Of a stretch of DNA of 64,000 nt, positions 1 to 12,839 are shown piece by piece. Every line of letters begins with the position of its first letter. Positions within the stretch are counted from its first letter, which is position 1. The DNA comes from Nocardiopsis kunsanensis DSM 44524 (lineage in GTDB: Bacteria > Actinomycetota > Actinomycetes > Streptosporangiales > Streptosporangiaceae): assembly GCF_000340965.1 (NCBI RefSeq), contig NZ_ANAY01000016.1, positions 62,001 through 126,000 of the forward strand, written 5' to 3'. The translations under genes were made by a program, and so were the position numbers. Below the pieces are notes generated by a model. It did no database searches and was not told where the DNA came from. It was given only the letters and a program-made list of their open reading frames with translations.

Positions 1-1044
1 CTTCGACGCGGTCTTCGAGGAGGTCTTCGGCGACGCGGCCCCGTCCAGGAGCCCCGGCGGGCCCCGTCCTCGGTCCGTACCAGGCACCGTGCCCGGTCCG
101 CGTCCGAGGGCGCGGGCCGTGGCACCACGGTCGCCCCTGGCACCGGCGAGGCAGGCGAGGGCCGGGCCGTGCGGGGGCGCGGCCGCGCGCCCCTGCCCTG
201 GGCCACACCGGCCGCCCCGTCGGAGCCCTCGTCCCCGGCCCACGTGGCACTGTCGGCCACCGAGCGTGAGGCGTTGGCCGGCGAACCCTTCGAGACCCTG
301 TCCGAGGACCAGGTGGCGCAGATCGGCGCGTGGCTCGCCGAGAGTCTGCCCCGCATGCCGCGGCGGCGGCCCCGGCGCCGGCGTCCCGGTCGCTGCGGGG
401 ACCGTGTTGCCCTGCGTGCCACCCTCGCGCGGGCCCGGCGCACCGAGTGGGAACTCGTCCAGGAGGAGCGGGTCCGCCGGCCCAGGAGGCTCGTGGTGCT
501 GTGCGACGTGAGCGAGTCGGTGCGCACGCAGTCCGCCGCCCGCATGCACCTCATGCGCGCACTCGTGCGCTCCTCCGCCCGGGCGGAGGCCTTCGCCTTC
601 GCCACCCGCCTGACCCGTCTCACCCCGGTCCTGGCGCACAGCGATGTGGACGCGGCGTTGGAACGCGCCGGCGAGACCGTGGCCGACCGGTTCGGCGGGA
701 CCCGGATCGCCGCGAGCGTGCACGAACTCCTCACCTCCCGCCACGGGGCGTCGGTGCGGGGCGCGGTCGTGCTCGTGCTCTCCGACGGCTGGGACAGCGG
801 GTCCCCGGAGCGGATAGCCGCGGTCATGGCCCGGTTGCGCCGGCGCGCGCACCGGGTGGTGTGGGCCAACCCGCGTGCGGCGGCGCCGGGCTTCGAGCCC
901 CGCGCCGCAGGTATGGCGGCGGCGCTGCCCCACTGCGACGAGTTCCTGCCCGCGCACAGTTTCGCCGCCCTGCGGGACGTGATCGCGGCGGTGGCCGACA
1001 CGGCCTCGCCGGGCCCGCGCGGGCGACGCGAGGCTTCCCGGTGA
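1..1044 (+). CDS. CoxE-like VWA domain protein, 5'-partial, apparent frameshift
   Basis: The C-terminal two thirds read as a von Willebrand A domain of the CoxE type, which usually works with a MoxR AAA ATPase encoded nearby. The first MIDAS motif DVSES lies near 504-518 and the SDGWDSG loop near 781-801. The gene begins left of the window. The first bases give a good protein-like reading (FDAVFEEVFGD) in frame 2, but the VWA domain is in frame 1 from about 240. The frames appear to switch in the Pro/Arg-rich linker, by a real indel or a sequence error. The gene ends at the presumed left edge of an accessory island, and a decayed copy of its 3' end lies at 7635-7795. Confidence 0.8.
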   Translation, partial: LRRGLRGGLRRRGPVQEPRRAPSSVRTRHRARSASEGAGRGTTVAPGTGEAGEGRAVRGRGRAPLPWATPAAPSEPSSPAHVALSATEREALAGEPFETLSEDQVAQIGAWLAESLPRMPRRRPRRRRPGRCGDRVALRATLARARRTEWELVQEERVRRPRRLVVLCDVSESVRTQSAARMHLMRALVRSSARAEAFAFATRLTRLTPVLAHSDVDAALERAGETVADRFGGTRIAASVHELLTSRHGASVRGAVVLVLSDGWDSGSPERIAAVMARLRRRAHRVVWANPRAAAPGFEPRAAGMAAALPHCDEFLPAHSFAALRDVIAAVADTASPGPRGRREASR

Positions 1045-1132
1045 TTTCACCGGCTTCATCCCTGTTTCAACACGATCGTCCCCGGGCGTAGAGAGACGGT
1101 CGCTTCGCTGTGCCGCCCGGGGCGGTGTGCCG

Positions 1133-1154
1133 TCAGGTCAGGGCCGGGACCCGG
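1133..1154. repeat. Left copy of 22-bp direct repeat flanking the ATPase/Toprim pair
   Basis: A 22-bp sequence beginning TCAGGTCAGGGC occurs here and identically at 3301-3322, in the same orientation. Identity stops at both flanks. The two copies bracket the ATPase and Toprim-like genes. The right copy forms the last codons and stop of the gene at 3301-3693, and this copy would encode the same tail (RVPALT, stop) on the minus strand. That is what is expected if the cassette entered at the 3' end of that gene and duplicated the target. Confidence 0.75.
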
Positions 1155-1200
1155 GCACCCCTCGTGTCCGCAGCCGACGGACTGGGGCTGGACGGCCCCC

Positions 1201-1881
1201 TCACCCTCGAAGGTGTTCCCGACCGCAGAGCTCGACGTCGTGCCAGAACCGTGTCCAGGAGCTGTTGCTGCCCTGGACCGCACCCAGGTGTCTGCCGTCG
1301 ACGACGGCACGAAAGACGGCGGGCGCATCGGATTCGGTGTACCGACGCCCCTTGGCCTTGGAGACCTCACGCATGAGGAGGCCCTTGGGGTCGGCAAAAC
1401 GACCGGTGTCCCTGCCCACGTACTTGGTGGGGAGCTTCCACGTCTTCACCACTGTGGGCAGCGCCTCCGGAAAGAGCAGCATCCACGCTTCCATCTCGGC
1501 GACCGCCAGGACATAGTGTCCGTTGTCCGTCTGATGATGGATCTCCTGCTCCACCCGCCGGTGGGCTTCCACGTAGGCCGGACCGTCGACGGCATCGAAG
1601 TCCTCGTGCACGTAGAGACAAGCCACTCGGGTTCCCGGCCCCTGTTTCTCAGCGACACCCTTGGCCTTGTTGATGATCGAGCGGACCCTCTTGGCGAGGT
1701 TCTCCCCTGTGGCCTTGTGGAGGCGGACGGTATCGCGGATCTGCACGATACTGCCGCGCAGAGCAGGATGTTTCTCCTCAAGGAGGGTCTTCAGACTTTC
1801 CCGGTCGTTGCTGTCCTCACCCGCGATCACCACGACGGAGCGGTCTCGGCCCTTACGTCGTGATTGGTGCCGACCACTCAC
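1201..1881 (-). CDS. Toprim-like (DUF4276-type) protein, partner of AAA ATPase
   Basis: This 226-residue protein starts with a basic tail followed by a beta-strand/acidic loop (VVVIAGEDSNDRESL), then HEDFDAVDG and AEMEAWMLLFPEAL. That order of acidic motifs resembles Toprim-fold DUF4276 proteins, in which these residues would bind metal. It starts with GTG at 1881, overlapping the TGA of the upstream ATPase gene by 4 bp, so the two are probably translated together. Toprim-like proteins paired with AAA15/OLD-like ATPases form several known anti-phage modules, such as PARIS and AbiL-type systems. Family assignment here is by motif pattern only, and the activity is inferred. Confidence 0.6.
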   Translation of the reverse strand: MSGRHQSRRKGRDRSVVVIAGEDSNDRESLKTLLEEKHPALRGSIVQIRDTVRLHKATGENLAKRVRSIINKAKGVAEKQGPGTRVACLYVHEDFDAVDGPAYVEAHRRVEQEIHHQTDNGHYVLAVAEMEAWMLLFPEALPTVVKTWKLPTKYVGRDTGRFADPKGLLMREVSKAKGRRYTESDAPAVFRAVVDGRHLGAVQGSNSSWTRFWHDVELCGREHLRG

Positions 1882-3086
1882 AGATCACCGCCCAGAGCTC
1901 CGGAGAACCACAGCTCGCCCAGGGGAAGGTCCTCGCTCCGCTCCACGATGGCTTCCAGCCGCTCTTGGGTGACCGCTGGTATCCGGGACGCCCCGTCACT
2001 GTCGCGTTCACAGACGACGAGTTCCTCCGGCCTGAGTCTGTCGGCGAGGGCCGGCGAGTGGGTCGCGATGAGGAACTGGGTGCGTTCGCTCGCTTCACGA
2101 ATGCGTTCCACGAGCAATTCCAACGCTTGGGGGTGGAGCCCGTGGTCGATCTCCTCGATACAAGTCAGCGCGGGAGGGTTCGAGTCGTACAGAAGCGCGA
2201 GGAGTCCGAGGAGCCGGATCGTTCCGAACGAGGCATCCGCCAATTCGGTGGGTACCCGGAGGCCGGTCTCCCGGAGAACCACGATGATTTCGCGCCCGGC
2301 ACCAGAAGGGAACTCGAAGTCGATTCCGTCGAGGTGCGGCAGAACCTCTCTCGCGTCGTCGACCAGACGCTGCCACGAGTCCGGGTCGTTCCTACTGAGG
2401 GTGAACAGGAAAAAAGCGAGGTTCGAGGCATCTGCCTCGAGCGTGGCTCCCCTGGGTGCATGAGAGGGGACACGCGAGGGAAAACGGGCCGAGGACACAT
2501 CCACGTCGAACACACGGAACGAGGCCAGCCCTTCGGCGAGGGTGGCGACCTCACTGCCGCCGGCGTCATCACTCAACCGCGGCAAGGTGGACAGGCCACT
2601 GCTGAACTTCTGTAGACCGATCGAGTGTACGTCTTCGTTCTGGCCTCGCCGTGTGTCCTCGACACGGGCTTCCTTTCCCTGGATGGTGATGCGCCGCCCG
2701 CGTCCCTTGACCCGTTTGAACTGGAAGCTCTCCTGCCGGGAAAGAGCGAATTCGCCCTCTCTCTTGCGTCGTTTGATCTCGAGTTCGTACTCGTCGAGTG
2801 CGTTGGAGCTGCTGTGCTTGGTCCAGGTCGCTTCGATACGGATCCGGATGAACCCCGGAGTCCGGGTACCGCCGCGAAACGCCGTGTTCTCGAAACCATT
2901 GCGTGCTGCGAGTGCGGGCTCGATATCGGTCTGGATGATGTCGGCCAGGAAGCGGAAGACGTCCAACACGTTGGTCTTGCCCGCTCCGTTGGGTCCGACC
3001 AGCACGGTGAGTGGGCCGAGCGGAACACTGACATCACGCAGACTGCGGAAGTTCTGCACTTGGAGTCTCAACAAACGCTTGTCCAT
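1878..3086 (-). CDS. AAA (AAA15/AAA21, RecF/OLD-like) ATPase
   Basis: A 402-residue SMC/RecF-like ATPase. Walker A is GPNGAGKT (residues 31-38) just after the typical N-terminal strand LQVQNFRSLRDVSVPL. A signature-like segment (SFGTIRLLGLL), Walker B (LTCIEEIDHGLHP) and the switch region LIATHSPALAD follow near the C terminus. The ATG at 3086 is chosen because the conserved fold starts immediately there. A longer upstream reading is not protein-like. It overlaps the Toprim-like gene by 4 bp. The pair sits alone between 22-bp direct repeats, so it behaves as a transferable unit. A role in phage defence is inferred from the architecture and location. Confidence 0.8.
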   Translation of the reverse strand: MDKRLLRLQVQNFRSLRDVSVPLGPLTVLVGPNGAGKTNVLDVFRFLADIIQTDIEPALAARNGFENTAFRGGTRTPGFIRIRIEATWTKHSSSNALDEYELEIKRRKREGEFALSRQESFQFKRVKGRGRRITIQGKEARVEDTRRGQNEDVHSIGLQKFSSGLSTLPRLSDDAGGSEVATLAEGLASFRVFDVDVSSARFPSRVPSHAPRGATLEADASNLAFFLFTLSRNDPDSWQRLVDDAREVLPHLDGIDFEFPSGAGREIIVVLRETGLRVPTELADASFGTIRLLGLLALLYDSNPPALTCIEEIDHGLHPQALELLVERIREASERTQFLIATHSPALADRLRPEELVVCERDSDGASRIPAVTQERLEAIVERSEDLPLGELWFSGALGGDL

Positions 3087-3300
3087 AGCTCCCAGCGTTC
3101 CGTCTCGTCTTGCGCCCGGATCGACGCTGCCGGACCTCCGCGTACATGCGGAGCGGGTCACGGCCGTTGTGTCCGCGCACATGTGGCGCCCTTGCGCCAC
3201 GAACTATAACCGTCCCATCGCCGACACGGCCTTCCCCGCCCACCACAGGACGTGTTCCCTCGGATCCGATGGTGGGCGGGATCGCACCGACAGGCGGTAC

Positions 3301-3322
3301 TCAGGTCAGGGCCGGGACCCGG
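3301..3322. repeat. Right copy of 22-bp direct repeat
   Basis: Perfect match to 1133-1154. It coincides with the last seven codons region and stop of the minus-strand gene 3301-3693. No integrase or recombinase gene is visible between the repeats, so if the cassette is mobile it would need help in trans. Confidence 0.75.
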
Positions 3323-3693
3323 CTGTCGGCCGCCTTCTCGGTCCACAGGCGGAAGGCGGGCGGATCGGTGTGCGGCCACAGCTTCAGCAGCAGGGCGTCG
3401 ACGTCGGGGGCCTCCTCCAGCCCGGCAGGGGTGGCGACCCAGAACGATTGGGTGTTTTCGCCCCACCAGATGATGAGGTGCCGATACTGGCGCTGGACCT
3501 GCGCGGCCTGGGCATGTTCGCGGGAGTACTCGGAGCGGTGCCCACCCAGACGGGGCAGGCGCTGAGCGCGGCGCCGACGGCAGGAGGGGTGATCGCACAC
3601 CGTGCACGCGGGGCCCACCAGGGCAGGCCGGTGCGGGAGGCTGCGGTACAGCGGATCGCTAGAGGGCCGCGGGGAGGGGATAGGGTTCTGCAT
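3301..3693 (-). CDS. Small uncharacterised protein downstream of lasso cyclase
   Basis: A 130-residue protein I do not recognise. The N-terminal third is Arg/Pro-rich with a CTVCDHPSC cluster. The C-terminal half is the more conserved-looking part (YRHLIIWWGENTQSFWVATP). There is no signal peptide or membrane segment. ATG at 3693 is preceded by AAGAGGA and lies 15 bp after the cyclase stop, so it is in the lasso operon. It does not look like the lasso RRE protein (B1) or the transglutaminase-like leader peptidase (B2), because no Cys-His-Asp triad is visible. Its last codons form the right 22-bp repeat. Confidence 0.55.
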   Translation of the reverse strand: MQNPIPSPRPSSDPLYRSLPHRPALVGPACTVCDHPSCRRRRAQRLPRLGGHRSEYSREHAQAAQVQRQYRHLIIWWGENTQSFWVATPAGLEEAPDVDALLLKLWPHTDPPAFRLWTEKAADSRVPALT

Positions 3694-3708
3694 CAGATCC
3701 TCTTTTCC

Positions 3709-4854
3709 TTACTTAGTGGGGCTCTCCAGGTCGAACGGAGTACGTACCTGTGGCGTTGAACGTGCGTTCTGCAAGGCGTCCCAGATTGAAGTGCGTCGGA
3801 TCTGCGCCCAACGAGCAGCTTCTCCCAGCGCTGCCCACGGCTTCTTGTGTCGCATGAGGTACGCGATGTGACTGGGCGGGGTGAGGAGGAGGCCGTCACC
3901 ACCGTCACCGGTCATGTGCATGTCCGATCCCTGTTCCGCGAGCCAGACCAGCTGTGCTGAGAAGTGGGCGTAGGAGACGGTGGAGGGCGCGGGTTCGTCG
4001 GTTGCCGGTACCAGGTCGAGGTCGGTGTACGGCAGATGCTCGCGGCGTATCGGCATCCACCGGTGGCGTAACCCCTGGTGCGGAATGGACTCGCGTGCGT
4101 AATCGAGATCTCCGCCCTGGAACACTCCCTCCGGGTGCAAGGTGACTCCGGTGATGTGCCGCCCCTCGAGTGCGAGGCGGGCAGCAGCGACGAGTCCCAG
4201 CGCCGTGGAGTCGAAGCCGCCGGAGAAGTCCGTGCTTGGGTGCTTCCCCGACTCGATACGTACGCTCACTGCGCTTTCCAACGCCGAGCGGAGACGGCGA
4301 CCGTGATCAACGCCGTCAGTCGCGGCCGGCCGCCAGACTGGGCGCTGTTCTACGTTCCTACCGGACAGACGCACCCTGTGGCCGAAGGCGAGCGGGTCCA
4401 CGTGCTCGAAGCAAGACCCGTGGAACTGGTCACCGGCCACCCTGGCTGCCATGTGGGTGAGGCTGATCTCTGGGTCCCCGTGGAGCGACGCGAGCATCCG
4501 CGCGCTCGAACTCCAGATGAGCCCGTGTGCCGTGCGGCGTGTGTAGAGCGGTGTGGCGCCCAGGTCGGTCCACAGCGTGACGCCGTCCGGAGTGACCTCG
4601 GCGACGATGTAACTTCCCGCCCACCTCCAAGCAACGTCGTTGGGAACCCCGTGGGCTACCGCTCGCTGAACCTGATGAACATCAGCCCCACACATGCCGA
4701 TCACTATCAAGCCGCTGCCACGGTCCCGATAGGGAATGACCATGTGGGGATCGGGGTATTCCGGACTCAGCCACAGCGACGGGAGGTCCGTAACGGGCTG
4801 TGCACCGGCCGGCCGGACGTGCATTTGGGGGCCGGTGGTCCCTCCGAACCACAT
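3709..4854 (-). CDS. Lasso peptide cyclase (asparagine synthetase-like), C-terminally truncated
   Basis: A 381-residue protein of the asparagine-synthetase-like family that adenylates a ring Asp/Glu and closes the lasso macrolactam. The N-terminal glutaminase-like domain lacks a catalytic N-terminal Cys, as in cyclases. The ATP-pyrophosphatase motif SGGFDS is at 211-216 and TGDGGD at 315-320. Lasso cyclases are usually near 550-600 residues. This one ends about 60 residues after TGDGGD with an unconserved tail, so roughly 170-200 residues appear missing. ATG at 4854 has an AGGAAGGCGGAGAG ribosome site. It follows the precursor gene after a hairpin. Cyclisation activity is doubtful. Confidence 0.8.
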   Translation of the reverse strand: MWFGGTTGPQMHVRPAGAQPVTDLPSLWLSPEYPDPHMVIPYRDRGSGLIVIGMCGADVHQVQRAVAHGVPNDVAWRWAGSYIVAEVTPDGVTLWTDLGATPLYTRRTAHGLIWSSSARMLASLHGDPEISLTHMAARVAGDQFHGSCFEHVDPLAFGHRVRLSGRNVEQRPVWRPAATDGVDHGRRLRSALESAVSVRIESGKHPSTDFSGGFDSTALGLVAAARLALEGRHITGVTLHPEGVFQGGDLDYARESIPHQGLRHRWMPIRREHLPYTDLDLVPATDEPAPSTVSYAHFSAQLVWLAEQGSDMHMTGDGGDGLLLTPPSHIAYLMRHKKPWAALGEAARWAQIRRTSIWDALQNARSTPQVRTPFDLESPTK

Positions 4855-4878
4855 GCTCTCCGCCTTCCTGAGGGGGCG

Positions 4879-4909
4879 AGGGCGCCCGCCCCGACGGACG
4901 AGCGCCCTC
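4879..4909 (-). terminator. Hairpin between lasso precursor and cyclase genes
   Basis: Arms GAGGGCGC (4879-4886) and GCGCCCTC (4902-4909) are perfectly complementary. The hairpin sits between the precursor stop and the cyclase start. Such structures often attenuate transcription so that the precursor message exceeds that of the enzymes. Confidence 0.5.
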
Positions 4910-4916
4910 CAGGGGG

Positions 4917-5045
4917 TCAGTTGTACGGGTTGCGCTTGTTCTCGTTGCGGGCGCTGCCCTCGCCGAGGGTCAGGTCGGCGGCGTCGCCGAGGTCGATGAC
5001 GGACTCGTCCGTGTCGAGAGGGACGGGAATGACCGAAGCGTCCAT
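4917..5045 (-). CDS. Lasso peptide precursor, 42 aa
   Basis: A short gene translating to a 27-residue acidic leader ending LGDAADLTL and a 15-residue core GEGSARNENKRNPYN. It has the hallmarks of actinobacterial lasso precursors: the LGDAxxLT leader end, Thr at -2 to the cleavage site, Gly at core position 1, and Glu at core position 8 for an 8-membered macrolactam. The tail would be the seven residues NKRNPYN. ATG at 5045 is preceded by AAAGGGCAGAAGC, and a cyclase gene follows directly. I do not recognise this core as a known lasso peptide. No leader peptidase, RRE protein or ABC exporter is visible nearby. Confidence 0.82.
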   Translation of the reverse strand: MDASVIPVPLDTDESVIDLGDAADLTLGEGSARNENKRNPYN

Positions 5046-5230
5046 GCTTCTGCCCTTTCTTGATTGACGGATCGGCGCCGATCACTTATGCGCCGGGTAA
5101 CCACACGCCGGGAAGAAAGTTTGAGATTCCCGCGTGCAGGTGCCGCTCTGTACTGTGGAACTCACGCTACGGACCACTCCCGCGGACCTGCCACGGACCG
5201 GGAGTACGAGTAACCTCCTCGGAGCCCCCC

Positions 5231-6376
5231 ATGGCCAAGCGCACCGCCCCCTCAACCCGGACCGCCAGTCAGGGTTCGTTGTCACGACCCGACGCAGACC
5301 GTGAAGGGCGGGTGTCGGGGTACGTCCTCAAGACCATCCGACAGGCCGTCGGCCTCACACAGGAACAGCTCGCCGAGCGAACCCGGGTGGATGTATCCAC
5401 TCTCCAGGGCTGGGAGTCCGGGCGCCGTCCACTGATGGCCGTCCCCACCGACGCCTACCTCGAGCTCCGCCACCTCCTCCACCGGCTGGGGGCGTCACCA
5501 AAGCTGCTCGAGCAGCTCGACACCGGTCTGCAAGCAGACCGCTTCCTCGGGTACGTACTCGCCTCGGACGGACCCATCGATCTGGACAACCACCCGCTCG
5601 CGACGTGGGTGATCACGAGACCGTTCACGGAGCTGGTCGCATGGCCCTTCACCGGTGCGGTGCCCCACGCTTTGCAAGAGGCCGCCCCGCTCCGCCGTCG
5701 GGGTCCTTCAGGAACCGGGCCCGGCCTCGCCTCGGACGAACGCCGACACATGGTCGATCACCTCCGGACCGTCGCCGAACAGTCGGCGAAGGCTTCTGTG
5801 GAGGGTGCGTTGCTTCGGCGCCAGGCTCACTACGTTGCCGGGTTCGACAAGTCCAGCGAAACCATCGAGTGGCTGGCGGTCATGCAGCGCGCGGAACAGC
5901 GACGCCTGGGCAACGAGGTGGAATGGAGCCCCTCGTGGGCCGTCGTCCGCTCGGGCGCGCACACCCTGGCCCGTACCGGCGATGAGGAGGCGCTCCCGCA
6001 GTTCATCGATGTGCACATCTCCACGGACGCCTGCGAGATCGCCAATCTCAACTACTGGGCGTACTGGCTCGGCGAGATCCCGGAGCCCCAGCTCGCGGAT
6101 ACGTTCATGATCGAGCTCCACCTCGACTCCTGGCACGGCGACCGGCTCATCAAACACCTCAAGGGCCGTCTCATCCCCACCAACCCCTACGTGGACGTTG
6201 TGTGCCACACCCTGTGGTCGTTGATCATCCGCAAACCCGCGCTGCTTGACACAAAGGTCGCCGATGACCTGGCTTCTTCGGTGCCCCGGATGCTGGAGGA
6301 AGGCGTTGTCTCACCACAGTCGCGTCGTGAGCTCGAGGAAGTCCTCTACGCTCTTCGAATGATCCAACGACGCTAG
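5231..6376 (+). CDS. XRE-family helix-turn-helix regulator
   Basis: A 381-residue protein with an N-terminal HTH_3 domain at residues 30-70 (GLTQEQLAERTRVDVSTLQG) and a long C-terminal region of unknown fold typical of large actinobacterial XRE regulators. The ATG at 5231 follows GGAG by a short spacer and precedes the first conserved region. An upstream start at 5060 would add a non-protein-like leader. It is divergent from the lasso genes across 185 bp and could regulate them. The HD-domain gene starts 12 bp after its stop, so the two form an operon. Confidence 0.8.
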   Translation: MAKRTAPSTRTASQGSLSRPDADREGRVSGYVLKTIRQAVGLTQEQLAERTRVDVSTLQGWESGRRPLMAVPTDAYLELRHLLHRLGASPKLLEQLDTGLQADRFLGYVLASDGPIDLDNHPLATWVITRPFTELVAWPFTGAVPHALQEAAPLRRRGPSGTGPGLASDERRHMVDHLRTVAEQSAKASVEGALLRRQAHYVAGFDKSSETIEWLAVMQRAEQRRLGNEVEWSPSWAVVRSGAHTLARTGDEEALPQFIDVHISTDACEIANLNYWAYWLGEIPEPQLADTFMIELHLDSWHGDRLIKHLKGRLIPTNPYVDVVCHTLWSLIIRKPALLDTKVADDLASSVPRMLEEGVVSPQSRRELEEVLYALRMIQRR

Positions 6377-6388
6377 AAAGGGCCCTTC

Positions 6389-6973
6389 ATGGCTGATGAG
6401 CAGGACGTGCGGGCACTGGACTACCTGTACGAGGCAGGCCTACTCAAGCGGTACCGGCGTACCGGCTGGGTGGTCGCCGGTGTCGCTGCCCCGGAGTCGA
6501 TCGCGGACCACTCGCACCGGGCAGCGATCGTTGCTGCGGTCGTGGCTGAGCTGGAAGGGGCCGACCCGCAACGCTCGGCGTTCCTCGCGTTGTTCCATGA
6601 CACGCAGGAATCGCGGCTGACAGATATCCCCTACATCGGAAAGCGTTACCTGAAGGCCGCATCCAACGCCGAGGTGACCGCTGACCAAACTGCTGGGATG
6701 CCTGAGGGGTTGGCGCGGTTGATCGGAGGAACAGAGTCGGAGTACGAGGCCCGAGAGTCAGCTGAAGCTGTATGCGCGCGGGATGCCGACAAGCTCGAAT
6801 GCCTTCTTCAGGCCGTGGAGTACCGGGAGCAGGGCACGGACACCCAGGCGTGGATCGACACCTCGTTCGCAGCGCTGAAGACGTCTTCGGCTCAGCGGTT
6901 GGCGAAACTCGCTCTTGAGAGGACGCCGTTGGCGTGGATGCACGAGGCGCGGGACGCAAAATCCCCGAAGTAG
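6389..6973 (+). CDS. HD-domain phosphohydrolase (YfbR/HDDC2-like)
   Basis: A 194-residue HD-domain protein. The metal ligands fit the family: His in IADHSHRA (41-43), the HD pair at 70-71 in LFHDTQES, and the distal Asp in ARDADKLE (132-134). Proteins of the YfbR/HDDC2 group are 5'-deoxynucleotidases, so a nucleotide monophosphatase role is likely but not certain. It has an AAAGGG ribosome site and follows the XRE gene by 12 bp. XRE/HD pairs of this kind are common in actinomycete accessory regions. Confidence 0.8.
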   Translation: MADEQDVRALDYLYEAGLLKRYRRTGWVVAGVAAPESIADHSHRAAIVAAVVAELEGADPQRSAFLALFHDTQESRLTDIPYIGKRYLKAASNAEVTADQTAGMPEGLARLIGGTESEYEARESAEAVCARDADKLECLLQAVEYREQGTDTQAWIDTSFAALKTSSAQRLAKLALERTPLAWMHEARDAKSPK

Positions 6974-6984
6974 GTGTACGCACG

Positions 6985-7330
6985 GATCCGCCCAGGCACC
7001 TCGGACCGTGACCGCGCGAGCCCTGGGTGTCCACGATGGGCGCTTGGGCGGCCACCTGGCCGGCGGGGTCATTGCGGCCGGCAGGTGCCCTTCCTGGCTC
7101 TGGCGCGTACGTGAGCTCCGCGCGCTCTTGCCGTCCACGATGAGTACGGCCAGGTCGACTGCACAGCCTTGCCCAGGGCGCACTCGACCTACCGCTACCG
7201 CGAGACGGACCTGGAGTCCACAGACGAGCATCGACGGCGCGGTCCGCAACGTCGGCCCGGATACGGAACAGCTCTACGAAGAGCATCTCTGCAAGACCAC
7301 GATCAGGAAGGGCTCATCTCGAAGCCCAAC
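6985..7330 (-). mobile_element. ISAs1-like transposase remnant
   Basis: No intact gene is present between 6974 and 7634. On the minus strand, fragments in two frames match the order expected for the ISAs1 (H-repeat-type) DDE transposase: LIVDGKSARSSRTR around 7100-7145, then in another frame NDPAGQVAAQAPIVDTQGS around 7000-7065. The first resembles the family motif with the first catalytic Asp (VDGK.xRGSRTR). Several frameshifts separate the pieces and no inverted repeats are evident. The rest of the interval, 7330-7634, shows nothing I can identify. The remnant supports past insertion activity in this island. Confidence 0.5.
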
Positions 7331-7634
7331 CTTCTCCTGGGCGGAGACACCCACTCACCTCAGTATCCCCTTTTCTCGACGGCCCCTCGGACGAAGGCGA
7401 CGAGAAGTGGGCGCTCCTGGCCCGGCCGAGTACGTGATTCCTCTCGATCCGGATTTCACTGCGTGCCCGTTCTGGAGCATCCGGCGAAGCGGCCTGAAAG
7501 CGCTGGATTTCGAGAACATGCGAATGGTGATGTGGTCCCGCCACTGGCATCCGAGGTAACGAAACAGGTCGGTCCGGGGCGCTCGACACCACCTCTCTCG
7601 ATGCGGGACCCCCGCTTCTGACTGACGTCCATCC

Positions 7635-7795
7635 GCTCGTGCTCTCCGACGACTGGGACAGCGGGCCCCGGAGCGAATAGCTGCGGATAGCCTGGCTGCG
7701 CTGGCGCGCACCGGGTGGTGTGGGCCGACCCGCACGCAACGGCGCCGGACCCCTCGCCGGAGGTATGGCGGCGACGCTGCGGCAGGCACGATTGG
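7635..7795 (+). pseudogene. Decayed 3' fragment of a CoxE-like VWA gene
   Basis: From GCTCGTGCTCTCCGAC at 7635 the sequence aligns with 771-945 of the VWA gene at the window start, through the SDG/WDSG loop and the VVWA(N/D)P segment. It has several small deletions, an in-frame stop and clear divergence, by eye roughly a fifth of positions. No start or N-terminal domain is present. It is a dead end-fragment. Its position just before the methyltransferase gene suggests it is the original neighbour of that gene, displaced when the island between the two VWA ends arrived. Confidence 0.75.
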
Positions 7796-7825
7796 TCGAG
7801 TCGGAGGCCGGGTAGCGGACAGGCC

Positions 7826-8488
7826 ATGCTGCTAGTGCGACCGCCGGGCGTCTACCGAGCCCAGGAGGACACCTCGCTGCTCCGTCAGGTACTGCGTCGA
7901 CGGGGCCGGCGCGGCCTGGTCGAGGGCCGCTCCGTCCTCGACATCGGTTCGGGTACCGGGGCGCTGGGTATCGAGGCCTTCCGTGCCGGCGCGGCCGATC
8001 TCACCGCCATCGACCTGTCGCGGCGTTCGGTCCTGACCAGTTGGCTCAACAGCCGCCTGCACGGGATCCCGGCGACGGTCCGCCGCGGTGACCTGTTCTC
8101 CCCCGTGAACCCGCACCGCTTCGACCTCGTGCTCGCCAACCCGCCTTACGTGCCCACCGCCGATAGGCCGCCGTCCCGCCACCGGATGGCCAGGTGCTGG
8201 GACGCGGGTCCGGACGGCCGGGTGCTGTTGGACCGTATCTGCGCGGGGGCGCCCTCGGCACTCGACGAGGACGGGACGCTCCTGGTCGTGCAGTCCGGGA
8301 TCGCCGGTGAGCAAGCCACGCTGGACCGGTGCGAGGAGGCCGGGCTGGTGGCCGAGACGGTCGCGCGGGCCCGCATCCCGTTCGGTCCGGTCCTGCGGGC
8401 ACGGGTCCCGGAACTGCGCACCCGCGGGCTGCTCGGTCCCGACCAGGTCGAGGAGGAACTCGTGGTCATCGAGGCGCGCCATGGCTGA
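7826..8488 (+). CDS. HemK-like SAM methyltransferase
   Basis: A 220-residue class I methyltransferase. The SAM-binding motif LDIGSGTGALG is at 38-48, the acidic AIDLS strand end follows, and NPPY is at 105-108. NPPY marks enzymes methylating planar amide or amine nitrogens, as in HemK/PrmC. It lacks the N-terminal helical domain of PrmC, so it is probably not the release-factor enzyme. ATG at 7826 is chosen because sequence upstream is VWA pseudogene. Its end overlaps the CDGSH gene by 8 bp, placing it first in a four-gene operon. The substrate is unknown. Confidence 0.8.
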   Translation: MLLVRPPGVYRAQEDTSLLRQVLRRRGRRGLVEGRSVLDIGSGTGALGIEAFRAGAADLTAIDLSRRSVLTSWLNSRLHGIPATVRRGDLFSPVNPHRFDLVLANPPYVPTADRPPSRHRMARCWDAGPDGRVLLDRICAGAPSALDEDGTLLVVQSGIAGEQATLDRCEEAGLVAETVARARIPFGPVLRARVPELRTRGLLGPDQVEEELVVIEARHG

Positions 8489-8696
8489 GGAGCGTCGCCG
8501 GGTCGTCGTCACCGGGGAAGGCCCGATCCTCGTCCACGGCCCGGTCGATGTGGAGATGCCCGATGGAACGCGTGTACGGAGCGATCGGGCGGTGACCGCG
8601 CTGTGCGTGTGCGGACGCAGCCGGCGCCGCCCGTTCTGCGACACCAGCCACCGTCGACGTGTACGTGGCAAGGAGAGAAAGAAGGAGGAGCCGTGA
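8481..8696 (+). CDS. CDGSH iron-sulfur domain protein
   Basis: A 71-residue protein carrying the CDGSH signature: C42-x-C44, S47, P51, C53-D54 and H57 (CVCGRSRRRPFCDTSH). This Cys3-His set binds a 2Fe-2S cluster, so the protein is probably a small electron-transfer or redox-sensing partner. It overlaps the methyltransferase gene by 8 bp and its TGA overlaps the GTG of the next gene, implying coupled translation. In the operon it may supply electrons to the diiron-type enzyme encoded next. That link is inference from gene order. Confidence 0.88.
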   Translation: MAEERRRVVVTGEGPILVHGPVDVEMPDGTRVRSDRAVTALCVCGRSRRRPFCDTSHRRRVRGKERKKEEP

Positions 8697-9694
8697 CCGC
8701 GATGTTGTCGGGGGCGCCGGTGCTTCCCGCCCCCCGTGGACCGGTCTCCGAGGCGGTTCTGTCCGCGCTGCGCGGGGATCGGCACGGATTCTCGGGCGCG
8801 GACGGGTCCTCGCCGTACGGGGAGGACCTCCAGCTGGCGCTCTACTGCTGTTACGAGCTCCACTACCGCGGTTTCCAGGACGTCGGCACGGACCGCGAAT
8901 GGGATCCGGAAGTGCTCGCGGTCCGCGGCGAGCTGGAAAGGATCTTCCTCGACGCGCTCAGGGACGACGTGCCCTCCGGTACGGACGTGGAGGCCGAGCT
9001 CGACGCGCTCCTCGTCGAGCACGTCGACGCGTTCGGCGTTTCCCACCACCTGCGCCAGCACGGGAAGCTGTGGCAGCTGCGTGAGTACGTCGCGCACCGT
9101 TCGCTCTACCACTTGAAGGAGGCCGACCCGCAGTCCTTCGTCATCCCGCGCCTGGACGGCCCGTCCAAAGCTGCCCTGGTGACGGTGCAGCACGACGAGT
9201 ACGGCGCGGGGGACCCCGAACGCACACACTCCAAGCTCTTCGCCGACATGATGGCCGGACTCGGTCTCTCCGACGCCTACGGTGCCTATCTCGGCTCTGC
9301 TCCCGCGGAAATGCTGGCCGAGGTCAATTTCATGTCGCTGTGCGGGCTGCACCGTGCCTTGCGTGCGGCGCTGATCGGGCAGTTCGCCACCATCGAGATC
9401 ACCTCCTCCCCCGGCTCGGACCGGCTGGTCAAGGCCATGCGGAGACTGGGCTGCGGTCCGGACGCCGTCCGGTTCTACGCCGAGCATGTGGAGGCCGATG
9501 CGGTGCACGAGCAGCTCGTTCGGCGCGAGGTGATCGCGCCGCTGCTGAAGGACGAACCCGGGTTGGCGCCCGATCTCGTGTTCGGGATCCGCAGCAGCAC
9601 GTTCCTCGCCGGCCGGTTGGAGGAGTACCTGTTGCACCACTGGAACCGCGGTGCCTCGAGCTTCCGCGAGCCCTCGTACGCGGGGCAGCCATGA
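8693..9694 (+). CDS. Iron-containing redox enzyme, haem-oxygenase-like (HDO) fold
   Basis: A 333-residue protein of the haem-oxygenase-like diiron family. Candidate metal ligands in helices include E169 and H179 (HDEYGAGDPERTHSKLF) and E264/D269/H272 (YAEHVEADAVHE), with further conserved-looking ELHYRGF at 55-61. Members oxidise or cleave amino-acid or fatty-acid-derived substrates in natural-product pathways. The start is GTG at 8693, with AAGGAGGAG just upstream and a GTGA overlap with the CDGSH stop. Its own TGA overlaps the ATG of the EgtD-like gene. The substrate cannot be told from sequence. Confidence 0.8.
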   Translation: MTAMLSGAPVLPAPRGPVSEAVLSALRGDRHGFSGADGSSPYGEDLQLALYCCYELHYRGFQDVGTDREWDPEVLAVRGELERIFLDALRDDVPSGTDVEAELDALLVEHVDAFGVSHHLRQHGKLWQLREYVAHRSLYHLKEADPQSFVIPRLDGPSKAALVTVQHDEYGAGDPERTHSKLFADMMAGLGLSDAYGAYLGSAPAEMLAEVNFMSLCGLHRALRAALIGQFATIEITSSPGSDRLVKAMRRLGCGPDAVRFYAEHVEADAVHEQLVRREVIAPLLKDEPGLAPDLVFGIRSSTFLAGRLEEYLLHHWNRGASSFREPSYAGQP

Positions 9695-10692
9695 CCCCGT
9701 CCGAACCTGCGGTGCGGGTGGGCGTCGTGCCGCTCGACGACAGGGACGGCACGGTTGCGGAGGAGGAGGTCGTGCGCGCCTGCCTCCTGCAGACGCCGCC
9801 CCGGCTGCCGCCCTGGCTCGGCTACGACCCGGTCGGTTCCGAGCTGTTCGAGCAGATCACCGAGTTGCCCACGTACTACCTGACCCGTGTGGAGCGGGGC
9901 CTGCTGGAGCGCTACTCCTCGGACCTGGCCGAGCAGCTCGGCTGCGGTCGGCTCGCGGAGCTGGGTAGCGGGAGCGCGAAGAAGACCGCGCTGCTGCTGG
10001 AGAGTTGTGTGCGTCTACGTGCGACCACCTACCTTCCGATCGACGTCGATCGGAGCATGCTGGAATCCAGTGGTGCCATGTTGTCCGCGCAGATGGACGG
10101 TCTGGAGGTCACCGGGCTGTGGGGACGGTACGAGGCGGGTCTGGAGTGGCTCCGTACCTACCCCGGTGATCCGCTCGCGGTCGCCTTCCTCGGCAGCAGT
10201 TTCGGCAACACCACGCGTGAGGAGCGTGACGGGTTGCTCGACGAAATCGCCCGCAGTCTGCGCCCGGGCGAGCGCTTCCTGCTCTCCGCCGATCTGGACA
10301 AGAGCCGCGAGGCCCTGGAGGCCTGTTACAACGATCCCCCCGGGTACTCGGCCTTCGCCGACTTCCGGCTCAACTACCTCACCCAGCTCAACCGTCGCTA
10401 CGGTGCCGGTTTCGTGCTCGACGACTTCGTCCCGGAGGCTCATTACAACGCGGCCACATCGACCGTGGAGGGGATTCTTCGTGCCCGGGACGACCGGACG
10501 GTACCGATACCGGGGCTCGGGCTCACACTGCACGTACCGCGCGGCCACTTCGTCAACGTCGGCTATTCGGTGAAGTTCAACGGCGAGCGGTTGGTCCGTG
10601 ACGTGGGGGCGCACGGTTTCAGCCTGAGGTCGCAGTGGCGGGACCACGAGACCCAGTACGGGTTCTTCCTCTTCAGCCGCGACGAGCTCTGA
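9691..10692 (+). CDS. EgtD-like (Methyltransf_33) N-methyltransferase
   Basis: A 333-residue methyltransferase of the EgtD family, which trimethylates the alpha-amino group of histidine in ergothioneine synthesis. The SAM motif ELGSGSAKK is at 90-98, with FLGSSFGNT and PDLDK-like SADLDKS further on. TYYLTRVE near 61-68 is the usual family N-terminal segment. Length matches EgtD (about 320). No EgtB, EgtC or EgtE is nearby; the neighbours are instead a diiron protein and a CDGSH protein, so the substrate may be a different amino acid or peptide. ATG overlaps the upstream stop (ATGA). Confidence 0.82.
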   Translation: MTPSEPAVRVGVVPLDDRDGTVAEEEVVRACLLQTPPRLPPWLGYDPVGSELFEQITELPTYYLTRVERGLLERYSSDLAEQLGCGRLAELGSGSAKKTALLLESCVRLRATTYLPIDVDRSMLESSGAMLSAQMDGLEVTGLWGRYEAGLEWLRTYPGDPLAVAFLGSSFGNTTREERDGLLDEIARSLRPGERFLLSADLDKSREALEACYNDPPGYSAFADFRLNYLTQLNRRYGAGFVLDDFVPEAHYNAATSTVEGILRARDDRTVPIPGLGLTLHVPRGHFVNVGYSVKFNGERLVRDVGAHGFSLRSQWRDHETQYGFFLFSRDEL

Positions 10693-10836
10693 TCCGGAAG
10701 CTGCGCGCCCGTGCGCACTCGCAGTGTCCGGCGGCGTGTCTGCCTCTTCGTCCTGCTCAGGGTGTTCTCGCCGGTCCGACCGGGTGGTCGGGGTCCGTCC
10801 GGAGCCCCGTGCAACGACACAGGGCGGGAGGAGACC

Positions 10837-11028
10837 ATGGCCGAGCTGAACCCGGTCGACCTGCAGAAGGCGCTCAAGGGGGCCAGTACCCCGCGAGCCG
10901 TGGGGCCTGACCTCACTGGCGCAGGAGAGCGGTGCGGACAACACCCTGGTGGAGGAGATCTCGGGCGCGGGACCGGACCGGTTCGGGGCCCCGACGACGT
11001 ACAAGAGGCCCTCTTCGGCAACGATTGA
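10837..11028 (+). pseudogene. DUF2795-like small protein with compensating frameshifts
   Basis: Read straight through, the frame gives 63 residues starting MAELNPVDLQKALKGAS and ending GPDDVQEALFGND, both typical of DUF2795 ends. The middle third in that frame is nonsense-like, whereas the +1 frame from about 10892 to 10983 reads LTSLAQESGADNTLVEEISG, the expected DUF2795 centre. Two indels, near 10890 and in the GGGG at about 10983-10986, would restore the whole family sequence. The gene is either damaged with an open frame kept by chance, or the sequence has two errors. It has a GGGAGGAGACC ribosome site and follows the EgtD-like gene by 144 bp. Confidence 0.65.
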
Positions 11029-11134
11029 CACCCGTGGCCCCGGGACGGTGGTCGGCCGCAGCCGCGGGCCGCCGTCCCGGGTCACCGGGACCGATCCCTA
11101 CGTCAGTTCTGCGGAGACGCAGAGGGCGGATCGG

Positions 11135-11422
11135 CTACTCCTTCGGGCCGTCCTGAGCACAGCTCCACACCCCAGCCAGCAGGGTCGCCCCGACCACGAT
11201 CAACGCGATCGCCCACGATCCCACCGGCGCCATAGCGGTCTCGCATGTTCCTCCGGCCCCCATCCTGGGCGCCTCCCCCGCGGCGAACCACCCGAAGGAG
11301 CCGTCAACGCTGCCCGGGGTCCACCAACCCGCCCCACACGGCCCGCTGGGTATCAGCCCGAGGGCCAGTCCACCGGCGACCGAAGCGGTGGCCAGCGTGC
11401 GGATGACCTGAACAGGGGACAC
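11135..11422 (-). CDS. Small membrane protein of unknown function
   Basis: A 95-residue protein with a hydrophobic N-terminal segment (TLATASVAGGLALGLI) resembling a signal anchor, a Gly/Trp-rich middle, and a second membrane segment (WAIALIVVGATLLAGVW) near the C terminus. The GTG start at 11422 is supported by GAGGAGA 6-7 bp upstream. I do not recognise a family. It is convergent with the DUF2795-like gene. Confidence 0.6.
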   Translation of the reverse strand: MSPVQVIRTLATASVAGGLALGLIPSGPCGAGWWTPGSVDGSFGWFAAGEAPRMGAGGTCETAMAPVGSWAIALIVVGATLLAGVWSCAQDGPKE

Positions 11423-11483
11423 GGCTTTCTCCTCGTAACAAGTGCTTTTCCACAGGGGACGGACGCCCCACGAATCGCGTTCA

Positions 11484-12547
11484 TCAAAGGACGAGGGATG
11501 AAACTTTAATGGAGGGGCGGTCCGTTGAAGGATATCTGCGATCCTCAGGGGCCGCTGAAGCGGCAGACCCTGGCCGCCAGCTCCAGAGGGTGACGTGCAC
11601 CGAGGGCCGGAAGTGGCCCACTGGGACTCCCGTGCCCCGCAGCATCGTCTGTGTGGCACGGGCGGTGGCGGCGAAGCGGACGAACTCGTCGGCCAACCCG
11701 GGTAGCTCATCCTCCCTCAGGGGCGCGGCAGTCCAGGAATCCCCGGTGCGCGCGGGCGGTCTGCTCGGGGGGGGGTGACCAGCGACCCGGACGCCAGGTC
11801 ACGGGAGACGGCGAAACCGCGCGCGAGCCCGACGCCCTCGCCCTGTCGGACACGGTCCAGGGCGGCGGCGTGGCTCTGGAAGACCCTCTGCCGGTGGGCG
11901 GGGATCCTGAAACGGCGCAGGGTCGACGGCACGGTCCCGTACCGTGCCTTGGCCGAGGGGCCCAGGGGCCACGTGTGTTCACGCATACAGCCTTCGTCGA
12001 TCCGGCGCCGGGCCAGGGGGTGGCCGGGCGCCGGCACGGTGACCATCTCGAAGTCGAGGATGGTCCGTCCGGTGATCGCAGGTCCTGTCCCGGGACGGGA
12101 CCCGAGCGCGGACCCGACGACGACGTCGACGGACCGGCTCCGCAGGAGGGCAGGCAGTTCTTCGGGGTCGTGCACGCTGAGTTCGGCGTTGAGGTTGTCG
12201 ACTCGGCCCACGAACTACTCGATGAGGCCCAGAGCGGTGTAGTCGTCGAACAGGCTGGAGGCGGCCACCCGCAGGAGGCGTTCTCCACCGCGGGCCCGGG
12301 TGACCTCGCTGAGAGTGCGGTCGTGCAGTTCCAGCATGTCAGCGGCGCGGCCGGCCAGGCGCAGGCCTCCGGGGGTGAAGACGAGTCCGGCAGCGCTCGG
12401 GGAGAACAGGGGGTCGCCGAAGAATGTGCGGATCCTACCCACCTGCAGGGACACGGCGGCCTCGGAGACACCGAGATCGTGTGCGGCCTTCTCGGCCGAG
12501 CCGGAACGGGCCACTGCCGAGAACGCCCAGAGCCGACTCGGGGTCAC
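11484..12547 (-). pseudogene. LysR-family regulator, disrupted
   Basis: The N-terminal part reads as a LysR winged-helix domain (SRLWAFSAVARSGSAEKAAH). Translation then stops at an in-frame TAG (12215-12217), and the same frame continues beyond it as a LysR effector domain (DVVVGSALGSRPGTGP). At the run of nine Gs (11767-11775 on the plus strand) the frame changes, and the usual family C terminus (FRPSVHVTLWS) appears in a second frame, running past the normal end to a stop at 11484. With a nonsense codon and a frameshift it is very likely a pseudogene. One or both lesions could be sequence errors. Confidence 0.8.
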
Positions 12548-12839
12548 CGCAGGTCCCTTCTTCGGCGTGTACTCGGGTACGCGGGCCCGCAGGGCAGGGC
12601 GGGACAACGGCTCGAAAGCCTGGACGGCATGTGGGCCTCCCGGGTGGGGTGTGCGGTCGGATCAGAAGAGCGCTCCCCGGCCACAAGGGGACTTCGGTCC
12701 CGAGCCGTCGCGGCGAAGGCCCCTGCTGTAGCCGCAAGTACCGCGTTCCTGTCCTTCTCCTTCCCGGAGCCGTTTCCGGGAGCGAGGGCTCGGGGCCGTA
12801 GGGCCGGAACCTGTCGGTCCCGCCCCTACGGGTGCGGGG

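Follow-up and report, generated by a model that had tools for sequence, protein, structure and literature searches.

We analyzed a 64,000-nucleotide (nt) stretch of the Nocardiopsis kunsanensis DSM 44524 genome (5.31 Mb; positions 62001-126000 of contig 16, called the window below), in which a gene for an ATPase and a gene for a small Toprim-like protein lie between two copies of a 22-nt direct repeat. Judged by sequence, this pair is a chromosomal HEC-01 system, a new member of a known PADLOC family of candidate defense systems. The best explanation of the locus as a whole is a chromosomal HEC-01 defense pair together with a repeat that is the footprint of a local event, a reading to which we give a probability of roughly 0.6. 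The original prediction for this DNA had proposed a mobile defense cassette set between target-like repeats.

The larger protein, HEC-01A (402 amino acids [aa]; 1878..3086, minus strand), is an ABC/OLD-type ATPase that has a Pfam match to AAA_21 (E-value 1.3e-39) and covers the PADLOC HEC-01A model PDLC04183 completely (2.2e-192, model positions 1-402 of 402). We take the ATG at 3086, where the family model starts, as the true start codon; the start at 3200 given in the open reading frame (ORF) list is too far upstream. The smaller protein, HEC-01B (226 aa; 1201..1881, minus strand), matches the PADLOC HEC-01B model PDLC04207 (6.4e-76, model positions 1-200 of 203), and its two conserved acidic regions and lysine, described below, give it a Toprim-like character. 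The two genes overlap by 4 nt, and the predicted combination of an ATPase and a Toprim-like protein encoded in this way is supported by both PADLOC matches and by the HEC-01B residue pattern. Comparison of both proteins with the PDB by sequence, close to a check that the original prediction had proposed, was informative for one of them: a profile of seven HEC-01A proteins matches an OLD-family chain (1.8e-14), PtuA (7.5e-12) and GajA (3.6e-6), and a sequence search with HEC-01B gave insignificant matches. The arrangement recurs among homologous loci, where an adjacent HEC-01B row is present in 77 of 82 (five have no usable row; the 82 remained after 14 of 96 table rows were omitted, 5 as poor and 9 as redundant), and the overlap is exactly 4 nt in 59 of the 77, a count made with the start codon closest to the HEC-01A stop and thus by a choice that favors 4-nt overlaps.

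HEC-01B is assigned to the Toprim type because of its residue pattern. At least 46 of 47 sequences retain each of eight residues (E22, D26, D94, D96, E129, E131, W133 and K166), with the motif layout E22, D26, D94xD96, E129xE131, K166. For Bp OLD, an extract of the published structural account lists a Toprim catalytic set of E400, E404, D455, D457, T506 and E508 with the lysine K562, and places an aspartate and a glutamate of RNase M5 in alignment with E404 and E508 (PMC6755086). The order and the short spacings agree between HEC-01B and Bp OLD (a glutamate with an acidic residue four positions on, DxD, two polar or acidic residues two apart, and a lysine), and the conserved residues of HEC-01B parallel the two-metal site of the OLD and RNase M5 Toprim domains as a match of pattern, not of structure. 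The AlphaFold model of HEC-01B has a predicted local distance difference test score (pLDDT) of 92.2 and a predicted template modeling score (pTM) of 0.87. Family membership, the kept two-gene order, the ATPase motifs and the full Toprim-type acidic/lysine pattern are supported directly, at the level of sequence. The label DUF4276-type, which the original prediction had attached to the small protein, is reduced to a faint similarity: the match of HEC-01B (E 0.016) does not reach the cut-off, and 9 of 47 relatives match DUF4276 at 0.01 or better. In a PADLOC scan read at E up to 1, HEC-01B matched HEC-01B models only, with no AriB and no AbiLii match.

A defense role of the pair is likely, and analogy with PARIS and the OLD nucleases suggests how it would be carried out. 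HEC-01A would most likely be a sensor or gate ATPase that restrains the Toprim nuclease HEC-01B. Once released or activated by a phage product, HEC-01B would cut nucleic acid (host transfer RNA [tRNA] or DNA) and so stop the infection. The sensing, the inhibition, the substrate and phage defense itself are what we infer from this analogy. In PARIS, as summarized in a partial text, hexameric AriA holds AriB, phage proteins trigger its release, and AriB cleaves tRNA (PMC12409363). One survey, in the portion available, counts several HECs as experimentally supported with activity and names HEC-06 (PMC12988326); an excerpt of a paper on Desulfovibrio prophages merely lists HEC-01 among detected systems (PMC12724379), and the term 'HEC' is absent from the main text of two PADLOC papers as far as that text was accessible (PMC8565338, PMC9252829).

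The distribution of the family bears on this role. A scan of a species-level genome collection gave 77 HEC-01 loci, mostly in actinobacteria with few in other phyla (the last rows being weak or partial). Phage and plasmid collections hold no close homologue, with three weak records (at most 27% identity) in the former and one distant match (31%) in the latter. A distant Streptomyces branch keeps the same neighbors, defined as protein clusters; by Pfam analysis of two loci these are genes for a caspase-helicase fusion of 1300 aa and for a Beta_protein (PF14350), with the helicase neighbor at L145, L147, L151, L154, L159 and L163 and the Beta_protein neighbor at L145, L146, L147, L151, L154, L156, L159 and L161, and the whole is possibly a larger conflict system. 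Conserved synteny, which the original prediction had named as a sign of a housekeeping family, thus exists in this branch and not around the window's pair. That the pair is an OLD-family ATPase/nuclease with a housekeeping or repair role, and not a defense system, would fit the constant neighbors in Streptomyces and the cell-cycle role reported for archaeal OLD ATPases in an extract of PMC12796447, but we hold it to be improbable: HEC-01A is patchy (present at E <= 1e-60 in 33 of 345 genomes of the window's order, and in 6 of the 40 genomes of its genus), its flanks vary between species, and the Streptomyces neighbors are unlike housekeeping genes.

The repeat TCAGGTCAGGGCCGGGACCCGG stands at 1133-1154 and 3301-3322, in direct orientation and 2168 nt from start to start, and its copies are identical at 22/22 positions, as had been predicted; equally confirmed are that HEC-01B and HEC-01A are the sole genes between them and that the right, proximal copy (minus strand) is the 3' end of a neighboring gene, namely the final 22 nt of small130 (130 aa; 3301..3693, minus strand), which a homologue survey of the genus identifies as a member of a multicopy family. 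'Exact' bracketing holds in the sense that the repeats flank the pair, but they do not abut it: the left, distal copy (minus strand) lies 46 nt beyond the HEC-01B stop, and the gap on the right is 214 nt. The repeat is real and nonrandom, because an exact repeat of at least 22 nt arose in none of 1000 dinucleotide shuffles (window 1-1200 versus 3087-4586; shuffle maximum 19 nt) and, under the stricter null of real flanks from mismatched HEC-01 loci, in only 0.2% of 1500 pairs. Across the whole genome the exact 22-mer occurs twice, with one further site at three mismatches and none for a reversed control pattern; the common chance motif that the original prediction had feared is not what these figures describe.

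Most likely the two copies were left behind by a single local event at the small130 3' end. By one route a second small130 copy beyond the pair would have been mostly lost, leaving its tail; by another a repair or insertion event would have copied the tail. We favor such a local relic because the bracketing repeats differ between loci, because G016 lacks a distal copy, and because G015 keeps a second small130 copy (G-numbers denote other genomes). For 58 HEC-01 loci we determined the longest exact repeat between the 1.5 kb upstream and the 1.5 kb downstream, with mismatched loci as the null (99% level 15 nt, maximum 52) and with omission of loci, such as G016, whose flank on one side or the other was shorter than 1 kb. 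Three of the 58 exceed the 99% level (94 nt in G008, 22 nt in the window and 16 nt in G023), and one more reaches 15 nt. The three sequences are unrelated, that of G008 being part of a 433-nt duplication and that of G023 a repeat of a clustered regularly interspaced short palindromic repeats (CRISPR) array; since the bracketing sequences differ between loci, they are not the ends of one element, and the 22-nt repeats probably do not mark the borders of a conserved mobile unit. Directly before its pair, G016 carries a small130-type gene whose tail, of the 84 copies other than the window's, comes nearest to the window's (20/22; the next has 18/22), and beyond the pair it has no distal tail copy (best 15/22). 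In G015 the pair is flanked by one small130 copy and by the degenerate remains of another (an imperfect 282-nt 3' part, 78%), and a bare tail could be what is left after further decay of such an arrangement. As an observation on G008 itself (L087, Nocardiopsis alkaliphila), the 433-nt direct duplication (86%) that brackets HEC-01 there contains a 38-aa ORF and extends from about -704 to -277 upstream of HEC-01A and from +160 to +585 downstream of HEC-01B; the same ORF occurs once in the window (11138-11233) and also in G006.

Alternatively, a trans-acting enzyme might have inserted the pair, as a cassette lacking its own recombinase, at the small130 3' end, with the 22-mer as an attachment core or a target duplication restoring the end of the gene. 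A perfect repeat placed exactly at a gene end beyond chance is what this would produce, and sharp divergence on either side of the repeats, between-species similarity that by eye stops at the HEC-01B stop, and the position of a small130-type gene just before the pair in four Nocardiopsis loci including the window all point the same way (by eye, seven Nocardiopsis loci have nothing in common past the HEC-01B stop codon). We nevertheless consider it unlikely. None of the five other closest loci has an exact bracketing repeat of this kind around the pair (G015 has its imperfect 282-nt copy instead), G016 combines the closest tail with the lack of a distal copy, no recombinase gene lies between the repeats, and the 22-mer is absent at three other small130 matches of the same genome. 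What stands of the predicted mobile cassette is the repeat; its target-like nature is not supported, with 3 of 58 loci bracketed and all of them differently. G006 and G013 are without the pair, yet their sequence differs from that of the window over several kilobases, neither being a conspecific strain.

The locus is variable, and the 22-nt event is one of several rearrangements there. On the left a VWA_CoxE gene (Pfam; 1..1044, plus strand) begins before the window, and a degenerate partial duplicate of its segment at window positions 771-928 lies at 7635..7780 (146 nt, plus strand; repeat families D1-D3). The VWA_CoxE gene and a LysR gene, which converge across a gap of about 50 nt in G013, are separated in the window by about 10.6 kb (1000-11577). 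G006 is syntenic on both sides (blocks of 80-91% identity) and has other filling, including a small130 copy, without HEC-01. Two side observations concern the same stretch. Two different frames are needed to align the window's LysR-type gene (11578-12701) with the one G013 reading frame, so the gene looks interrupted. At 3709-5045, beside the defense pair, lies a gene for a macrolactam cyclase of the Albusnodin/ikarugamycin family (NF033561, 1.1e-120), which with a possible 42-aa precursor ORF (4917-5045) would form a minimal lasso-like cluster.

The small130 family has a characteristic neighborhood. Of the 79 copies with enough sequence, 69 have a HATPase gene no more than 900 nt upstream, and beyond it a divergent DUF397-XRE pair is often present among the matches listed; in the part of PMC7159879 available, DUF397 and its HTH partner are regarded as a toxin-antitoxin pair in a mobile gene neighborhood. 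Parts of this module (XRE-DUF5753, HATPase, DUF397) occur within about 6 kb of HEC-01 at 30 of 69 loci versus 3 of 40 control regions, a rough comparison in that the controls were taken at fixed positions in Nocardiopsis and family genomes, most HEC-01 loci are from Streptomyces, and the loci are mutually related.

Several observations weigh against a defense pair with a local footprint. A full-text literature search, with preprints outside its scope, found no functional study of HEC-01 and no experiment on it. The window's HEC-01B matches no Pfam model at the cut-off, and its search against the PDB returned insignificant matches alone, AriB at E 0.5 among them. A defense-model scan of 126 of 130 neighbor proteins (42 loci) does not show an enrichment of defense genes beside HEC-01, as would be expected of a general defense-island gene: among the best 25 of 75 matched models the counts fall on few proteins (one each for DISARM, type IIG restriction-modification, Cas3e/Cas8e, NsnA and a second HEC-01A, and six for MkoA/MkoC). 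Finally, the tail copy is perfect, versus 83-94% identity in three matching segments for the nearby VWA_CoxE duplicate, which would still allow a younger, cleaner insertion-type event.

The relatives of the window's pair have a further feature. We scanned the upstream regions of eight HEC-01 loci, including the six closest in Nocardiopsis (of which the window is one), and in four of these six we found that type I-E CRISPR repeats directly precede HEC-01A on its own strand (six repeats in G015, three each in G010 and G023, and one in G008, with further degenerate ones by eye). Three of the four show a periodicity of about 61 nt; the same scan found no repeats upstream of HEC-01A in the window, G016, G047 or G073. 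Downstream of the pair, G023 has two more intact repeats, with a Cas7e gene on that contig another 6.6 kb away, and G015 has one beyond its second small130 copy; a partial downstream repeat in G008 is equalled by 7 of 100 shuffles and lacks significance. Control regions gave one CRISPR-repeat-like match in 528 kb. HEC-01A homologues of other genera show isolated motif matches and no periodic upstream array, and a loose palindrome shows mild enrichment in the regions preceding HEC-01A, all loci taken together (43 in 56 kb versus 422 in 974 kb); our statement on upstream arrays rests on the four Nocardiopsis loci, not on this palindrome count.

Arrays also follow small130 elsewhere. Among the 85 copies fetched (which include six HEC-01-linked rows: the window, G010, G016 and three from G015, two of these being one degenerate copy), 11 have an array downstream on the same strand (at least two repeats within 600 nt) and one has any upstream repeat; the 11 are L033, L042, L219, L223, L228, L232, L235, L239 and L263, together with the HEC-01 loci L082 and L084, and the arrays mostly start about 150 or 194 nt beyond the small130 stop. 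Without the HEC-01-linked rows an array follows 9 of 79 copies, in seven genomes (three copies in G011).

These arrays raise the possibility that the pair is wired to a type I-E mini-array, by leader read-through, Cas6 processing or CreTA-type repression by Cascade, and is switched on when CRISPR immunity fails. Besides the same-strand repeats just before HEC-01A and their periodicity, a tree of 14 hand-picked proteins allows one array gain: it pairs the window with G023 at full support and lets G008 branch off first among the six, which would permit an ancestral array that was lost twice. A spacer segment with a palindromic core, GCTACTAAGGTGCTTAGGGG, is also identical in the G010 and G015 mini-arrays (L082, L084) and is found exactly nowhere else in the 40 genus genomes; it may be a promoter or operator. 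Type I-E spacers were tested with AAG as the protospacer-adjacent motif (PAM). On that basis CreTA-like self-targeting was tried and rejected: none of 17 spacers from four arrays, with spacer limits assumed and the best three matches per spacer considered, combines the AAG PAM with a near-perfect seed around the promoter. Cas7e is matched in G015 and G023 and not in G008 or G010, and Cas6e matches are strong in G000, G015, G016 and G023 but weak in G008 and G010 (7.7e-12, 5.7e-17). With no guide-promoter match and no Cas7e match, control of the pair by Cascade is unlikely in at least G008 and G010. The array label needs three changes on the tree and is matched by 156 of 500 label shuffles, and is thus not significantly clustered; the lack of periodic arrays in other genera and of a relic in the window (below) adds to these objections. 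We regard the coupling as a poor prospect, and co-location at a favored site is the simpler reading. Slighter still are the chances of its fuller version, in which HEC-01 in Nocardiopsis would be a back-up immune module docked on a CRISPR leader and mini-array beside the mobile DUF397/HTH/HATPase toxin-antitoxin-like module, CRISPR transcription, processing or Cascade binding would set its expression, and the window copy would since have lost its array.

The region upstream of HEC-01A in the window (3087..3300, minus strand) contains a hairpin with arms at 3235-3250 and 3265-3280, and its RNA folds better than shuffles (z -2.68). We considered a decayed CRISPR leader or repeat in these 214 nt (a palindrome at -70) and rejected it: shuffling reaches the score of the best match to a position weight matrix of the CRISPR repeat 16 times in 100 (5 times in 100 for G016), and a leader-plus-repeat profile search of the upstream regions of the window and G016 found no significant relic. 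The block TAGTTCGTG..GCGCCACATGTGCGC at 3175-3206 was likewise rejected as a wider regulon motif, since the exact pattern occurs elsewhere in the 40 genus genomes only at the G016 HEC-01 locus.

The analysis gives a catalogued candidate family a defined member that can be tested, and supplies residues for mutation. The recurrent adjacency of CRISPR array, HEC-01 and DUF397/HTH/HATPase genes points to a shared landing place for defense genes in Nocardiopsis, and offers a cheap test of whether CRISPR arrays drive or restrain a neighboring second-line defense. With the mobile-cassette reading unproven, this CRISPR neighborhood of the pair's relatives is the most interesting new lead.

Compared with the PADLOC definition of HEC-01 (Hma-embedded candidate 1), the window proteins match both models near full length and keep the gene order, but the pair adjoins the VWA_CoxE gene, small130 and the lasso-like cyclase gene, with no Hma gene among its annotated neighbors. 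CreTA and the relatives of the pair have in common that a gene is preceded, in related strains, by partly degenerate ectopic CRISPR repeats; unlike CreTA, which has one or two repeats according to an excerpt of PMC9458426, the HEC-01 relatives mostly carry more, the best three matches per spacer gave no guide-to-promoter match, and repeats were not detected in the window. OLD, Gabija GajA and Septu PtuA share the ATPase profile similarity of HEC-01A and the E..(4)..D, DxD, ExE, K pattern of HEC-01B, but in HEC-01 the nuclease and the ATPase are separate genes, and no helicase or HNH partner lies beside the window's pair. The kinship with PARIS and AbiL that the original prediction had suggested extends to the gene logic, the ATPase and the Toprim-like pattern of the small protein, not to model matches of the latter. 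HEC-01A matches the AbiLi model (5.5e-28), although HEC-01B has no AbiLii match and the similarity is much weaker than to HEC-01. Like AriA and AriB, the window's genes encode an ABC ATPase and a Toprim protein separately, and HEC-01A matches the AriA ATPase model (3.3e-35), a model of general AAA_21 length (304); HEC-01B has no AriB model match (E 0.5 in the PDB). Given the same gene logic and the missing AriB match, HEC-01 may therefore work like PARIS without being PARIS.

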